This document shows, piece after piece, positions 39,145-45,534 of a DNA stretch of 64,000 nt; the first letter of the stretch is position 1; each line of letters opens with the position of its first letter. A program made the position numbers and the translations under genes. Location of the stretch: positions 1 through 64,000 of the forward strand of contig JAFTZM010000026.1 in the NCBI GenBank assembly GCA_017464525.1. The letters run 5' to 3'. Source of the DNA: Clostridia bacterium (GTDB lineage Bacteria > Bacillota > Clostridia > Oscillospirales > QAKW01). The notes below the pieces were generated by a model. That model was not told the origin of the DNA, made no database searches, and worked only from the letters and a program-made list of their open reading frames with translations.

Positions 39145-39174
39145 CTATCAATCAGGGGACGGAGGTGTGATTGA
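39103..39174 (+). repeat. Interspersed short repeat, copies 2-4
   Basis: A partial copy (39103-39117), a full copy (39118-39144, TCAATCAGGGGACGGTTCTG then TGATTGA) and a variant (39148-39174, with GGAGGTG replacing GGTTCTG). The variant creates a Shine-Dalgarno for the following open frame. Confidence 0.85.
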
Positions 39175-40541
39175 TGCAGGGTAATATTGCAAGCAGAGAC
39201 CGTGAGGGTCAGCCGGTATGGTATTTCCATTATGACAATAATTGGAAAGATCAGCTAAGCATGATTACAGATTCCGAAAACAATGTTGTGAAAGAGTTTA
39301 CTTATGATAATGCAGGAAATATGCTGACCGATGGAACAAATTCTTATACCTGGAATGGAAATCGGCTGGTTTCATCCACAACGGACGATGAGTATGGATA
39401 CGTCACTTCGTATACATATAATTCTTCCGGATTACGTACATCCAAAACCGTGACGGATTGGACATATGAATATTTCTATAACGGAGATCAGCTTGCGGCG
39501 CAAAAAATCACATACTATGGCACCTATGTGGTTTATATGAACTATGTATACGGTGAAAGCGGCTTGGAATGGATCCTATATAAAAGGGTTTTAGCCAACG
39601 GAACAGTTGATTGTGAAAAGCTGTTTGCAGTAGGTCATAATCCTCAGGGAATGATCGATATGCTGCATGAGTTTAATTATACCTCCAACTACGGTTTCCA
39701 GCGCACCTATTTCATCACCTATACGGCGTTTGGGGAATTGTGGGATATAGAGATCCGAAATGAGGTCGGGAATGCAGATGCCAGCGATGGCACTGTAATT
39801 AACGATCTTCTTACGGTAAGATATAAGGATTATCTCTACGATAGCGAAACGGGCTTGTACTATCTTCAGCAGCGGTATTATGATCCCACCATCTGCCGCT
39901 TTATCAGCCCCGATACCCTCATCGCCGAAGGGCAAGGCACCAGCAACTATAACTTGTATGCCTATTGCGGGAATAACCCAATCATGTATGCAGATCCGAC
40001 AGGGGAAATGGCATCAATTACAATGGCATTTTGTATGTTTGTTGCATGGGTTTCTGTTACTGATGCCGTTAAATCAATGCTTCTTTTTACTTCGTCGGTT
40101 GTAGATTTAACAGAAGAACTATCAAGGCCATCATCTGGTCATGGGTATTATATGAATCTATTTGGAAATGAAGTGGCTTTAGGAGATAGGTTTGGGCGAG
40201 TTGTTTATTTTGCTGCAGACTGTATAGGAGAAGAAATGATTGCAGGAACGATTGCCTTTTTGGAATTAATGGATTTTTGTAACGAATTTCATGTAGATGT
40301 AGACCAGAAGACGGCAATAGGAATATTTTACTTTCTTGTACAACAAGCAGAAGTCGATGCTCCAATTTCGAAAAAGCTCAAATTGGTATTTGGTGCAGAT
40401 GCTATATTTTCCTATGCAAGTTCATGGCTTGAGGTAATTAGGCGTGATTATATTGATAATGTCGATGCTGAATATATGACCGAAAGCCATATGGCACGTG
40501 AAATGTTCGGAATGATACGCTTAGGCAATTATGGAGGATAA
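39174..40541 (+). CDS. Rhs-repeat C-terminal cassette with polymorphic tail (cassette 1)
   Basis: The product has 455 residues. Residues 1-about 210 are Rhs/YD repeats (KEFTYDNAGNMLTDGTN, YTWNGNRLVSSTTDD). The conserved Rhs core follows: YLYDSETGLYYLQQRYYDP then TICRFISPDTLIAEGQGTSN and YNLYAYCGNNPIMYADPTGE. After this border the tail of about 180 residues is AT-richer and unrelated to cassette 2, as in polymorphic toxins; no toxin family was recognised. No export signal remains. Start ATG at 39174 has GGAGGTG from the repeat seven bases upstream. A candidate immunity gene follows two bases after the stop. Confidence 0.85.
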   Translation: MQGNIASRDREGQPVWYFHYDNNWKDQLSMITDSENNVVKEFTYDNAGNMLTDGTNSYTWNGNRLVSSTTDDEYGYVTSYTYNSSGLRTSKTVTDWTYEYFYNGDQLAAQKITYYGTYVVYMNYVYGESGLEWILYKRVLANGTVDCEKLFAVGHNPQGMIDMLHEFNYTSNYGFQRTYFITYTAFGELWDIEIRNEVGNADASDGTVINDLLTVRYKDYLYDSETGLYYLQQRYYDPTICRFISPDTLIAEGQGTSNYNLYAYCGNNPIMYADPTGEMASITMAFCMFVAWVSVTDAVKSMLLFTSSVVDLTEELSRPSSGHGYYMNLFGNEVALGDRFGRVVYFAADCIGEEMIAGTIAFLELMDFCNEFHVDVDQKTAIGIFYFLVQQAEVDAPISKKLKLVFGADAIFSYASSWLEVIRRDYIDNVDAEYMTESHMAREMFGMIRLGNYGG

Positions 40542-40543
40542 AT

Positions 40544-41035
40544 ATGAGAAGACAGCTTATTTCGTTTGGTCCCATTATTAGAGTACAGACCTGGTGGCGG
40601 CAAGACCCCTTTTCTTATAGTGTAAAAGAGTTGGATGATACGATTGTTGTGCGGCATTCTACGCTGAGTCTATGTATTCATCTAATTCCAAAACTTTTAT
40701 GGATCGGGGTATGGTTTTGGATCTGGTATTATGTCCCGGCGCTTTGGTGGGCGGTTTTGTGCGTTGTCGCTATGACCGGATATCGAATTTTTGCCCTTGT
40801 GCGCTACCGCTTGGTGATCGATAAGAAAAAATACGTGATCTATAAGCGGATGTACTTAAAAACAAGATATTCCATGGCGGGTGCTTTTCGGATGGAAAAG
40901 GTAGCGGATGGAATTTATGACGCTTGCTATGATGGAGATTGGATTTTATCTGTCAGTGAATGGAGCAAGAGAGATAAAATCCTCTTGGAATACTTCCGGT
41001 CTGCCGATGTGGAATTTATAGATCGATCGTTATAA
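40544..41035 (+). CDS. Small membrane protein, candidate immunity partner of cassette 1
   Basis: The product has 163 residues with two close membrane helices (LCIHLIPKLLWIGVWFWIWYY and LWWAVLCVVAMTGYRIF) and a PH-like soluble tail. It begins two bases after the Rhs tail stop, with GGAGG before the ATG inside the previous gene end. Immunity proteins of Rhs toxins are often placed this way, and membrane immunity proteins protect from membrane-acting toxins. The role is inference; no family recognised. Confidence 0.6.
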   Translation: MRRQLISFGPIIRVQTWWRQDPFSYSVKELDDTIVVRHSTLSLCIHLIPKLLWIGVWFWIWYYVPALWWAVLCVVAMTGYRIFALVRYRLVIDKKKYVIYKRMYLKTRYSMAGAFRMEKVADGIYDACYDGDWILSVSEWSKRDKILLEYFRSADVEFIDRSL

Positions 41036-41104: not shown

Positions 41105-42268
41105 TCATCGGGGCTCAGAACTTCAAAAATGGTAGGAAATGTTCGATATGAATACTATTACAGTAATGGTAAACTGCGAACGCAAAAAATATTCTATCTC
41201 AGCACCGGAACAACAACCTATTTGAACTATAGCTATGATGAAGTGGGTCTTGCCTGGATCAAGGTGTATAAAGATACCGGATATGGGGATATGACGAAAA
41301 GAATCTATCAGATCCAACACAATCCACAGGGTGTTATTGAATCTGTTCATGAATATCGGTACGGGAACGATGATACTCTTGCAAATGGAAATCCGATCAG
41401 TCATCAGCGAACCTATCATTTGCAATATTCTGCATTTGGTGAATTGCTCGGATATGAGATCGTAAATAATAGAGTTACCGGAGATAGCTCACAGGTCTAT
41501 GTTGAAATTCTTATTGATGAGGTGCTGACGGTTCGTTATAAGGATTATCTTTACGATAGCGAAACAGGCTTGTACTATCTCCAGCAGCGGTATTATGATC
41601 CCACCATCTGCCGCTTTATCAGCCCCGATACCCTCATCGCCGAAGGGCAAGGCACCAGTAGCTATAATTTGTATGCCTATTGCGGGAATAACCCGATTAT
41701 GTATGCGGATTACAATGGAATGCTTTGCTTTGATTCTGGTGTTCAGGGTCAAATCTTTTCTCATGGGGAACCGGTATATGGCTCGATGTATTATGATGAA
41801 TATTATACTGATGAGGAAAAAAAGGTTATAGAAGTATTACTTGGAATTGATACTTCATATACGGCTTTTGCTTTTTTGAAGTATGATATGTTACATTATG
41901 CTAGAAATTACTTCAACAATTTGCCAGATCTAAATACAATACTGAATGATTGGATAAAACAGGACGCAAGTGCAAATATGTATCATCTAAATACAAATGG
42001 GTCACAAGGATTTGATGCTTTGTATAATATAAAGTATTTATCCCCAGATGGTCATAGAGAGGCGGTTATATGTTTTATACCTGGACAGACACCGTATATT
42101 GTTACAGACCCAGCAAATATGGGGACATATAATTTTGGAACAAGTACTTTTGAACATGCTTTGTTTGATGTGTTGCCATATTGTTTGTACGGAAATAGTC
42201 CTCAAGATACCACTTTGAATCGAGTGTATCCCATTAAAAGGGGGTTGAACTATGTTCCGGCTCTTTAA
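41105..42268 (+). pseudogene. Rhs C-terminal cassette 2, 5'-truncated
   Basis: Open from 41105, where SSGLRTSK matches the same position of cassette 1; the first ATG is at 41129 but without a ribosome site, so it is probably silent or awaits recombination. It holds YD repeats, the Rhs core (41543-41710, nearly identical base by base to 39828-39995) and then a different tail of about 185 residues (FDSGVQGQIFSHGEPVYGS, EHALFDVLPYCLYG). The tail shares nothing evident with that of cassette 1. A candidate immunity gene overlaps its end. Confidence 0.8.
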
Positions 42269-42527
42269 GAACTGCGAAGTTTTTTTAGCTCTATTGGTAG
42301 TTCTAACGCCCGTGTGGCTACTTCTTTTATTGATAGTTTTTCCGGCTTATCTTTGGGACGGTGCGGCAATTGCACTTTTTGGGATGGACCTGCTTTTTGT
42401 GGTTTTTTCTATAGTAAAAGGATTCAAAACCCGCAAAAAAATATCCGAAATATCAATGGCTGTGTCAAGTATTAGCTTTGTTATATGGTGGCTGTTGGTT
42501 TACTTTTTTACGTCCGTTCATGTATAG
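42252..42527 (+). CDS. Small membrane protein, candidate immunity partner of cassette 2
   Basis: The product has 91 residues with about three helices (ALLVVLTPVWLLLLLIVFPAY, AAIALFGMDLLFVVFSIVKGF, AVSSISFVIWWLLVYFF). It overlaps the cassette-2 stop by 17 bases and has AAAAGGGGGTTG upstream. Location and size suggest immunity, but no homology is seen. It is followed by short-repeat copies. Confidence 0.55.
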   Translation: MFRLFKNCEVFLALLVVLTPVWLLLLLIVFPAYLWDGAAIALFGMDLLFVVFSIVKGFKTRKKISEISMAVSSISFVIWWLLVYFFTSVHV

Positions 42528-42686: not shown

Positions 42687-42766
42687 TAAAAATTCAAAAA
42701 GAGACGGTTGCGAAAGCGGCCGTCTCTTGATATAATAAAGGTATTCTTTTTTTCGGAGGCATTCAT
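42687..42766 (+). promoter_or_regulatory. Leader and promoter of the acyl-CoA synthetase gene
   Basis: Contains a hairpin AAGAGACGG (42699-42707) / CCGTCTCTT (42720-42728) and an extended -10 TGATATAAT (TATAAT at 42731-42736); CGGAGG is the ribosome site. The same leader is copied at 38494-38574 and in part at 41047-41077. Confidence 0.7.
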
Positions 42767-44453
42767 GAAACGACCCTGGCTTGAGCATTACGGCACCGTG
42801 CCCCATCATTTGACCTATCCGCAGGGCTCTATGAGCGATGCGGTATTTTCGGCTGCAGAAAAGACCCCGGAGCAGCAGGCGCTGGCCTTTATGGGGCAAA
42901 GCGTTTCCTATCGGCAGCTGGCCGAAGAGATCCACAGGACTGCCAGGTCCTTTTGGGCCCTTGGCATCCGGAAGGGGGATCGGGTCACGCTGTGTATGCC
43001 CAATGTTCCTCAAACGGTCTATTGCCTTTACGCTCTCAATGAATTGGGAGCAGTGGTCAGTCTGATCCATCCTCTTTCGGCGGAAAAGGAGATTGTTTTT
43101 TACCTTTCGGAGGTGGAGAGCACCACTCTCGTCACCCTCCATCAATTCTATGATAAGCTGATACAGGTGCAAAAGGAATATCCCTTGAAGCACCTGATCA
43201 TCACCGATATCGACGATGCCTTGGGCGGCATCAAAAAATGGGGCTACCGGCTGGCCGTTAAGTCCAAATTCCCGAAACTGCAGTCCGCCGAAAATCTGAC
43301 CCTCTGGAAACAATTCCTCGCCGATGGCACCCCGTACCAAAAGGCGCCCGCCACCGCAGACGACGGTGCGGTGATCCTCTTTTCCGGCGGCACCACCGGC
43401 ACCAGCAAGGGCGTCCTGCTCTCCAACGGTAATTTTAACGCCCTGGCCCTCCAGACCGCCGCCATGGCCGCCCGCCCCATCGCCGGCCAGCGGATCTTGG
43501 CCGCCATGCCCATGTTTCACGGCTTTGGGCTGGGGGTCTGCGTCCATACAGCTCTGGTCAACTCCGCCGGCTCCATTCTGGTGCCCCGCTTTAATGTGAA
43601 GGAATATGCCAACTTAATTAAAAAGGAACGGCCCAATTATATCGCCGGGGTTCCCACTCTTTATGAAGCCCTCACCCGTACCGATTATCTGGATCATGCA
43701 GATCTTTCCTGCCTGCTGGGGGTGTTCTCCGGGGGGGACAGCCTTTCGGTGGAGCTCAAGCGGAAAATGGATCAATTTCTTGCCGATCGGGGAGCCTTGG
43801 TGCGGATCCGGGAGGGCTACGGTACCACCGAATGTGTGACCGCCAGCTGCCTCACCCCTGATCAGGAGGAACGGGAGGGGAGCATCGGCCTGCCCTATCC
43901 CGATATGGACTATATGATCTGTAGGGTGGGCACCACTGAAGAGGTTCCCTATGGAGAAGAGGGGGAGATCTGCCTCAAGGGCCCCACCGTGATGCTGGAA
44001 TATCTGGGTCACCCGGAGGAGACCGCCGATGCCCTGCAGATCCATCCCGATGGAGAGCGCTGGCTTCATACCGGCGATCTGGGGGTGATGGATGCGGATG
44101 GCTTCATCTACTTCCGCCAGCGGCTGAAGCGGATCATTGTGACCAGCGGGTATAATGTTTACCCCTCCCAGATCGAAAATGTGCTGGACGGCCATCCTAA
44201 GGTGCAGCTCAGTTGTGTCATCGGCGTGCCCGACCCCTATCGGATGCATCGGGTGAAGGCTTATATCGTCCCGAAAAAGGGCGTGGAGCCTACCGACGCA
44301 CTGCGGGAAGAAATTCTGGCTTATTGCAGCACCTATATTGCCAAATATGCCTGCCCCCGGGAGCTGGAATTCCGGGAGGATCTACCCAAGACCCTGGTGG
44401 GTAAGGTGGCCTATAAAAAATTAGAAGAAGAAAATTCCTGCGAAAAAGTCTGA
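42765..44453 (+). CDS. AMP-dependent acyl-CoA synthetase/ligase
   Basis: The product has 562 residues. Adenylate-forming motifs: ILFSGGTTGTSKGVLLSNGN (P-loop), REGYGTTECVT (motif for AMP binding), LHTGDLGVMDADGFIYF (Asp), RLKRIIVTSGYNVYPSQIE (hinge) and the C-terminal KTLVGKVAYKKL with catalytic Lys. It activates a fatty or other carboxylic acid to its CoA ester. The N-terminus begins MKRPWLEHYGTVPHHL, typical of long-chain acyl-CoA synthetases. A longer frame upstream reads into the leader, so ATG at 42765 (CGGAGGC upstream) is used. It may be co-transcribed with the tubulin-like gene 34 bases downstream. Confidence 0.93.
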   Translation: MKRPWLEHYGTVPHHLTYPQGSMSDAVFSAAEKTPEQQALAFMGQSVSYRQLAEEIHRTARSFWALGIRKGDRVTLCMPNVPQTVYCLYALNELGAVVSLIHPLSAEKEIVFYLSEVESTTLVTLHQFYDKLIQVQKEYPLKHLIITDIDDALGGIKKWGYRLAVKSKFPKLQSAENLTLWKQFLADGTPYQKAPATADDGAVILFSGGTTGTSKGVLLSNGNFNALALQTAAMAARPIAGQRILAAMPMFHGFGLGVCVHTALVNSAGSILVPRFNVKEYANLIKKERPNYIAGVPTLYEALTRTDYLDHADLSCLLGVFSGGDSLSVELKRKMDQFLADRGALVRIREGYGTTECVTASCLTPDQEEREGSIGLPYPDMDYMICRVGTTEEVPYGEEGEICLKGPTVMLEYLGHPEETADALQIHPDGERWLHTGDLGVMDADGFIYFRQRLKRIIVTSGYNVYPSQIENVLDGHPKVQLSCVIGVPDPYRMHRVKAYIVPKKGVEPTDALREEILAYCSTYIAKYACPRELEFREDLPKTLVGKVAYKKLEEENSCEKV

Positions 44454-44487
44454 TGTTCCTTCGTTTTAAAAGGTAGGAGGAATGAAT

Positions 44488-45123
44488 ATGAGCACTTTAT
44501 TGATCGGCCTCGGCGGGATCGGTTCCGCTCTGGCAGACCGGGTGGCGGCGCAGACCGGCCTTCCGGCATTTGCAATCGACATTGAATCGGCGGCGCAGTA
44601 TTCCCACGCCCGGCAGCTCTGCCTTTTTACCGGCCAGAGCCTGCGGGATATGCTGGAGCTGACCCCCGAGATGAAGGCCTGGCTGCCCCCGGCAGAGCTG
44701 ATGCGCAGTGAAGCCATGGGCGGAACCTGCCAATCCCGGCAGATGGGAAGGGCCTTTTACCGCCATGCTATGGTTCAGGGGCTGCTGCAGCCCTTGATCG
44801 AAGCGGCGGAGGATCCTAACCTCCAAAGGGCGGTGATCATCACCACCCTGGTGGGCGGCACCGGTTCCGGGCTGTTTATGCACCTGGCCTCCCTGCTGCG
44901 GGAAAAGGCGCCGGGGCTGGAGCTTATCGGCGAATTTCTGATGCCCCCTAATTTCAGTTTTTTGGATTCCACCGCCCAGCAGGCGCATCTGGAGGCCAAT
45001 GCCGAGGCCGCCTGCCGAGAGCTTTCCGCAGCGCCCCTTTTCGATGCCCGTTATTTTTACGATAAGCGCCTGGAAAAGCCGGATTTTTCCTATGTGGAAC
45101 GGGGAATTCTTTCCCATTTTTAA
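44488..45123 (+). CDS. Short tubulin/FtsZ-superfamily-like protein
   Basis: The product has 211 residues. It starts STLLIGLGGIGSALADRV (Rossmann-like Gly loop, residues 6-13), then GTCQSRQMGRAF (residues 79-90) and AVIITTLVGGTGSGLFMHLA with GGTGSG at residues 123-128, matching the tubulin/FtsZ signature loop G-G-T-G-[ST]-G. It resembles the N-terminal half of tubulin-like domain proteins (PF13809: A-G-G-T-G-S-G-x-F-x-D-L-A), but those are usually several hundred residues or more. There is no second (C-terminal) activation domain. Start 44488 is seven bases from AGGAGG; ATG at 44482 is one base away and rejected. Role unknown. Confidence 0.7.
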   Translation: MSTLLIGLGGIGSALADRVAAQTGLPAFAIDIESAAQYSHARQLCLFTGQSLRDMLELTPEMKAWLPPAELMRSEAMGGTCQSRQMGRAFYRHAMVQGLLQPLIEAAEDPNLQRAVIITTLVGGTGSGLFMHLASLLREKAPGLELIGEFLMPPNFSFLDSTAQQAHLEANAEAACRELSAAPLFDARYFYDKRLEKPDFSYVERGILSHF

Positions 45124-45129
45124 AGAGAT

Positions 45130-45162
45130 AAAAGACAGGTCAATCCTGTCTTTTATTTTTTA
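45130..45162 (+). terminator. Rho-independent terminator
   Basis: AAAGACAGG-TCAAT-CCTGTCTTTTATTTTTT after the tubulin-like gene, isolating it from the his operon. Confidence 0.92.
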
Positions 45163-45173
45163 TAAAAAAAGCC

Positions 45174-45202
45174 TTGACTTTAGCGTGATAGAGTGATAAA
45201 AT
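45174..45202 (+). promoter_or_regulatory. his operon promoter with candidate HisR operator
   Basis: TTGACT at 45174-45179, 17-base spacer, TAAAAT at 45197-45202. Two GTGATA boxes (45185-45190 and 45193-45198), two bases apart, overlap the spacer and -10 and are a good candidate site for the YerC/HisR-type repressor encoded next. No histidine T-box is seen in this short leader. Confidence 0.65.
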
Positions 45203-45234: not shown

Positions 45235-45534
45235 ATGAGCAAGATCCGCAATCAGGAGATCGACCGTTTGTTTGAAGCCATTCTCTCATTGGAGAATATC
45301 GAGGAATGCTATAATTTTTTTGAAGACGCCTGCACCATCAAGGAGATCAACGAGATCGCCCAGCGGTTCCAGGTGGCCTGCCAGCTGGATGCAGGCAGAA
45401 ACTATCAGGAGGTCAATAAAGAGACGGGCGCTTCCACCGCCACCATCTGCCGGGTGAATAAATGCCTTAACTACGGCAACGAGGGGTACCGCACCGTCAT
45501 CGACCGGTTGAAGAAGGAAGGAAAGCTTACATGA
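45235..45534 (+). CDS. hisR: TrpR-family regulator, YerC/HisR type
   Basis: The product has 99 residues. The TrpR/YerC fold is seen in RNQEIDRLFEAILSLENIEE then CYNFFEDACTIKEINEIAQR, and the helix-turn-helix EVNKETGASTATICRVNKCL. In Firmicutes this family is predicted from comparative genomics to repress histidine genes; here it is the first gene of the his operon, four bases overlapping hisZ. The start at 45235 has AAAGGAGAACG upstream; a longer frame is not supported. Confidence 0.9.
   Translation: MSKIRNQEIDRLFEAILSLENIEECYNFFEDACTIKEINEIAQRFQVACQLDAGRNYQEVNKETGASTATICRVNKCLNYGNEGYRTVIDRLKKEGKLT

Follow-up and report, generated by a model that had tools for sequence, protein, structure and literature searches.

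A short gene of a gut-type bacterium, located in the 64,000 nt stretch of DNA analysed here (the window), encodes what is, according to the predicted structure, the nucleotide-binding half of an FtsZl1-type tubulin-like protein. The FtsZl1 family (PF13809) was defined as FtsZ-like 1 by Makarova and Koonin in 2010 (PMC2875224), and the short protein is a compact variant of this known family, with one known occurrence: nearly all other members found have ∼850-1330 aa, as compared with 211 aa in the short protein. This refines the original prediction of a minimal tubulin/FtsZ-like protein. Taken jointly, the identity of the domain, the integrity of its gene and nucleotide binding are likely. The whole explanation, namely that this intact-looking gene encodes a solitary, compact nucleotide-binding domain of the FtsZl1 branch, which would regulate a long FtsZl1 protein, has about even chances of being correct.

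The predicted ORF of ∼211 residues is present and has a good ribosome-binding site (Table 1), the spacing of which makes the start at 44488 better than that at 44482. Residue numbers in the alignments start at 44482 and are shifted by +2 relative to 44488. Counted from 44488, the motifs IGLGGIGS (6-13), QSRQMGRAF (82-90) and GGTGSG (123-128) are all confirmed, the last at the residues that had been given and directly after the hydrophobic segment AVIITTLV, as also noticed at that time. Codon use is host-like, with a GC3 of 0.71 against 0.59-0.74 in the other genes measured. The gene is located in the middle of a 103 kb contig, in a genome that is 98.7% complete, and no continuation of a long homologue was found downstream, in any frame or on any contig of this genome. 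Together with the terminator hairpin at the stop codon, this makes the stop look real.

Table 1. Coordinates of the short FtsZl1 gene, its motifs and its neighbours in the window
Feature	Position	Strand	Evidence or remark
Long-chain acyl-CoA synthetase, likely start 42765	42708..44453	+	34 bp upstream of short gene; relatives in 11/11 other family genomes
Ribosome-binding site AGGAGG, 7 nt 5′ of ATG 44488	44475..44480	+	Sequence
Alternative start of short gene	44482	+	Would give 213 aa
Short FtsZl1/Tubulin_2 gene, 211 aa	44488..45123	+	ORF, RBS spacing, PF13809 58.6 bits, AF2 model
T1 loop GLGGIG, phosphate-binding; 4 invariant glycines retained	44506..44523	+	Alignments, conservation count
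GGTCQSRQMGRAF, equivalent of family motif EGAGQVRAISRLA before/at helix H3	44719..44757	+	Alignments, conservation count
T4 loop GGTGSG, tubulin signature; 6/6 residues retained	44854..44871	+	Alignments, conservation count
Strand S6 PLFDARYFYD, final core strand; PYDFCFLFD in long relatives	45034..45063	+	Alignment; AF2 strand 189-193
C-terminal tail, 19 residues; at place where H7 starts in long relatives	45064..45120	+	AF2 models
Strong intrinsic terminator, overlaps stop codon and continues 3′	45118..45167	+	-21.3 kcal/mol, z -7.24; inverted repeat I1
Promoter-like site of yerC	45174-45202		
yerC/TrpR-family gene, first of his genes (yerC-hisZ), right border of variable slot	45235..45534	+	

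Running the PF13809 (Tubulin_2) HMM of Pfam, as had been suggested, gives 58.6 bits for a cut-off of 27 (E 8e-16), the best stretch covering profile positions 81-234 of 356, and the score against PF00091 (24.6 bits) is under the Pfam cut-off of 33. The family profile matches solved FtsZ chains weakly (E ∼1e-3), and hhalign aligns the family with the genome's own FtsZ at the T1/S2 region only. PHROGs, PADLOC and NCBIfam gave no family for the short protein. Its AlphaFold2 (AF2) model (pLDDT 83.8, pTM 0.82) relies on an input alignment of 64 homologues that are all FtsZl1 relatives and is therefore not independent of the family assignment. The strands of this model are at residues 5-10, 29-33, 44-47, 116-122, 147-153 and 189-193 (S1-S6), and confidence is low in the tail (residues 199-213). 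Among the 50 Foldseek matches listed against the PDB, all are FtsZ, TubZ or CetZ, with a best E of 1.4e-7. Collectively, the AF2 model and Foldseek indicate a tubulin-type nucleotide-binding domain and exclude the unrelated Rossmann fold against which structure prediction had been proposed as a check. The tubulin-fold, PF13809-type domain of the original prediction is thus supported by Pfam, AF2, Foldseek and the homologue surveys.

In AF2 models and alignments, the short protein has the six core strands S1-S6 and the loops T1 and T4 and ends right after S6, without H7, a T7 loop or a C-terminal domain. In the model of residues 1-435 of L092, a long relative (pLDDT 80.7), the six strands recur, with the sixth at 248-252, and are followed by an H7-like helix (265-281) and then a helical region. 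In FtsZl1 proteins, H5 is the last element alignable with FtsZ, and T6-H7 are not identifiable (PMC2875224); the short protein thus corresponds almost exactly to the FtsZ-alignable core plus S6. It belongs to the same sequence family as the long FtsZl1 members and shares with them loops T1 and T4, a GxxQxR motif ahead of H3, the T5/H5 region P...ANAxAxxREL and strand S6. It differs from them by shorter loops and by the absence of the H7-like helix, the helical region and the long C-terminal part, which belongs to the usual FtsZl1 architecture, outside the Pfam definition. With FtsZ, TubZ and CetZ (PF00091), it shares the fold of the nucleotide-binding domain, with a TM-score of ∼0.5-0.6 over the query. 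In contrast to the short protein, these have H7, the T7 loop, a second domain and a C-terminal tail. Compared with them, it is also altered in T2 and at a position that may match the T6 asparagine.

The sequence is strongly diverged. Identity with the closest relatives is ∼30%, and in the tree the branch of the short protein is very long, with 5.6 changes per column for a median end branch of 0.1. Its neighbours there are Clostridia FtsZl1 proteins that form a small clade, and not the long FtsZl1 protein encoded in the same genome, a placement that long branches render unsure. None of the ten T1 and T4 residues shared by all 64 long homologues has changed, and of the 35 columns that are conserved to at least 95% in the long proteins and filled in the short one, 26 are retained. 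In GGTCQSRQMGRAF, as compared with the family motif EGAGQVRAISRLA, G81, Q84, R86 and R90 are retained, and A82, S89 and L91 are altered. Near-invariant residues that are lost include DTD in T2 and the AQN asparagine after S6, so that nucleotide binding or use may be altered. The core is also compacted, since the T1-to-S6 span has 176 residues versus 232-253 in the 64 long homologues. Shortening concerns the segments T1-T2 (24 residues versus at least 31), H3 arginine to T4 (39 versus at least 46) and H5-S6 (12 versus at least 33), and T4-T5 is one residue under the minimum of the long homologues.

These features bear on the possibility, named in the original prediction as the case against it, that the gene is a non-functional, strain-specific remnant of a full-length FtsZl1 gene truncated at its 3′ end. 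Such a remnant would agree with the fast evolution of the protein, with the presence of the gene in one genome only and with the fact that almost every other member found to contain the core is long. However, when L092 was drifted in simulations to 33% identity without selection, the frame stayed open in one of 400 runs and the ten residues were never all kept; old neutral decay is very unlikely given the open frame and the intact T1 and T4 of the short gene. Judged from the sequence, a decaying remnant is unlikely, because at ∼30% identity all ten residues are still there and several loops fall short of those in every one of the 64 homologues. Loop length also speaks against the idea that an ordinary long gene was truncated only lately, which does not account for the short gene: such a truncation should retain loops of the long type, yet several are below the minimum of these homologues. 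Moreover, neither a downstream nor a detached C-terminal remnant was found on any contig of the genome, the terminator overlaps the stop codon, and the end of the gene is a domain border. Compaction and divergence thus argue against simple truncation, although a long protein outside the sample, compact and fast-evolving beforehand, might have been truncated recently. As a whole, the remnant explanation is improbable. That a long gene only looks short here through an assembly error or frameshift is much more improbable still. Frameshift-broken long homologues do occur in draft genomes, as at locus L121, but here homology does not continue in any frame or contig, only ∼50 bp separate the stop from the end of the terminator, and the gene is mid-contig in a nearly complete genome.

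That known members are far longer, as originally claimed, was found for nearly all others (850-1330 aa; almost all relatives are five to six times longer). PF13809 matches occur in 33 of the 394 genomes of the order sample (∼8%), where frames with the whole core have 556-1331 aa, the short gene being the sole exception; the remaining smaller frames cover the first 50 profile positions only, meet a contig end, or are of FtsZ-like length and under the cut-off. Searches of the order and class samples with the short protein as query returned long frames only (556-1331 aa), and the phylum sample contributed further long proteins as well as weak, partial matches; the frames of the latter, at 446-556 aa, all exceed the short gene in length. 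Scanning genome_contigs (84,980 species) with a profile as guide brought up 172 relatives, and the best 80 of them were retained. Where length was measured among these 80, it is mostly ∼900-1300 aa, and shorter frames are due to contig ends or a frameshift; the length measurement does not comprise 14 more distant loci, which did not fit the measuring motif. No second complete short FtsZl1 member was found in the order, class and phylum samples or among the best 80 of the 172 genome_contigs relatives, and a single-sequence search of genome_contigs and viral_contigs found no orthologue of the short protein. The short form is seen in one genome only.

Two types of candidates were rejected. The 328-aa frame of a Lachnospiraceae contig (L121, 4467-7900) is part of a long FtsZl1 gene split by an assembly frameshift, and in ORFs of 427-454 aa the PF13809 match is confined to the first 50 positions of the profile. 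Phage and plasmid records gave distant matches only, three of the four plasmid matches being annotated as tubulin-like; one phage record, an unverified faecal scaffold, contains an ordinary long FtsZl1 frame, and the profile scan of viral_contigs gave one long protein. A Turicibacter MAG contig (WRGF01000212.1; L135 and L141) carries two FtsZl1 genes ∼12 kb apart, and the 434-aa frame of L141 is perhaps frameshifted or truncated.

The genome with the short gene also encodes, on a different contig (C27), a long FtsZl1 protein of 1229 aa (L052, G000:C27:58000-77900), as well as a canonical FtsZ on C29. The row of genes on C27 encodes a 740-aa vWA-motif protein, the FtsZl1 protein, and proteins of 716 and 1442 aa. 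In the 740-aa protein, the vWA-type DxSxS motif was recognized by eye as DNSGSM, and there is no Pfam match; the 1442-aa protein matches BSP peptidases weakly. FtsZl1 genes are often, but not always, in an operon with genes for a vWA-domain protein, a GTPase or membrane proteins, in contrast to the short gene. Within the family, the other 11 genomes, several of which are incomplete, gave no PF13809 match. Since PF13809 is present in ∼8% of the genomes of the order, the chance of a single co-occurrence is ∼1 in 12, and the presence of both genes in one genome is suggestive at best of a functional link.

The immediate neighbourhood is that of a variable slot (44453-45174), bordered by the acyl-CoA synthetase and yerC genes. 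In two genomes of the genus (G001, L057/L036; G002, L054) a terminator-like hairpin comes after the synthetase gene and yerC is the next gene, so that the slot is empty, and in a third (G004, L055) it is filled by genes for an ECF-transporter component and a DUF1893 protein. The short gene is absent from all 11 other genomes of the family, and no convincing flanking repeats were found around it as a sign of insertion. No terminator is recognizable in the 34-bp gap after the synthetase gene, and both genes are probably co-transcribed. The original prediction had stressed a stand-alone version next to an acyl-CoA synthetase. Its standing alone is borne out, but a functional link with the synthetase is not required, because the slot varies within the genus; the neighbourhood therefore says little on function.

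Neighbouring subunits of FtsZ-type filaments meet nucleotide face to T7 face, and the T7 loop of one completes the active site of the other (PMC8456036). The short protein would bind a guanine nucleotide via T1 and T4 and, because the T7 catalytic face is missing, would neither hydrolyse it nor polymerise alone. With only the nucleotide-bearing face present, it might bind the long FtsZl1 protein of contig C27 from one side only, and thereby cap one end of its putative assembly or tune this assembly. A functional analogy exists with MciZ, an unrelated 40-aa inhibitor from Bacillus subtilis that caps FtsZ protofilaments (PMC8456036), in that a small protein would limit a tubulin-family polymer at one end. 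It is plausible that a filament protein was pared down to a regulator or switch. The capping or regulatory role for the long FtsZl1 protein, preferred here among the functions proposed, is tentative, and the same caution applies to the view of a natural half-tubulin, i.e. a selected domain freed from the polymer-forming half and acting as a nucleotide-gated cap or switch for long FtsZl1.

Equally likely as capping, and thus no less tentative, is the main rival, a nucleotide-binding switch or enzyme that acts by itself in a new role, which could for instance concern the synthetase or the membrane, and has no remaining tie to an FtsZl1 polymer. The very long branch and the altered conserved residues outside T1 and T4 suggest such a changed function, the short protein and the long FtsZl1 from the same genome are not sisters in the tree, and its gene is located 34 bp behind that of the synthetase with no recognizable terminator between them. 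However, relatives of the synthetase exist in all genomes of the family and the short gene in none of the other 11; the slot being elsewhere empty or occupied by other genes, the operon partnership may be accidental. Furthermore, the sole family genome with the short gene is also one with a long FtsZl1.

Although FtsZl1 proteins occur widely, the literature retrieved offers predictions only, filament formation is still conjectural, and our search found no direct papers on split FtsZ halves or on FtsZl1 experiments. A natural protein ending just past the alignable core would show which part of these proteins folds and binds nucleotide alone, and would provide a small target for structural and binding studies, the large FtsZl1 members being likely hard to handle. 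If capping by the short protein were true, a regulator of the tubulin superfamily would be built from half of a tubulin-superfamily protein.

Upstream of the short gene, the window also contains two Rhs-like C-terminal cassettes (39171-40541 and 41129-42268, + strand) with a near-identical core (VRYKDYLYDSETGLYYLQQRYYDPTICRFISPDTLIAEGQGTS) and different tips. Each is followed by a small ORF (40544-41035 and 42252-42527) that could be an immunity gene. The GC3 of these Rhs genes (0.35-0.39) is low for the genome, which suggests that they are foreign Rhs tips that were displaced.
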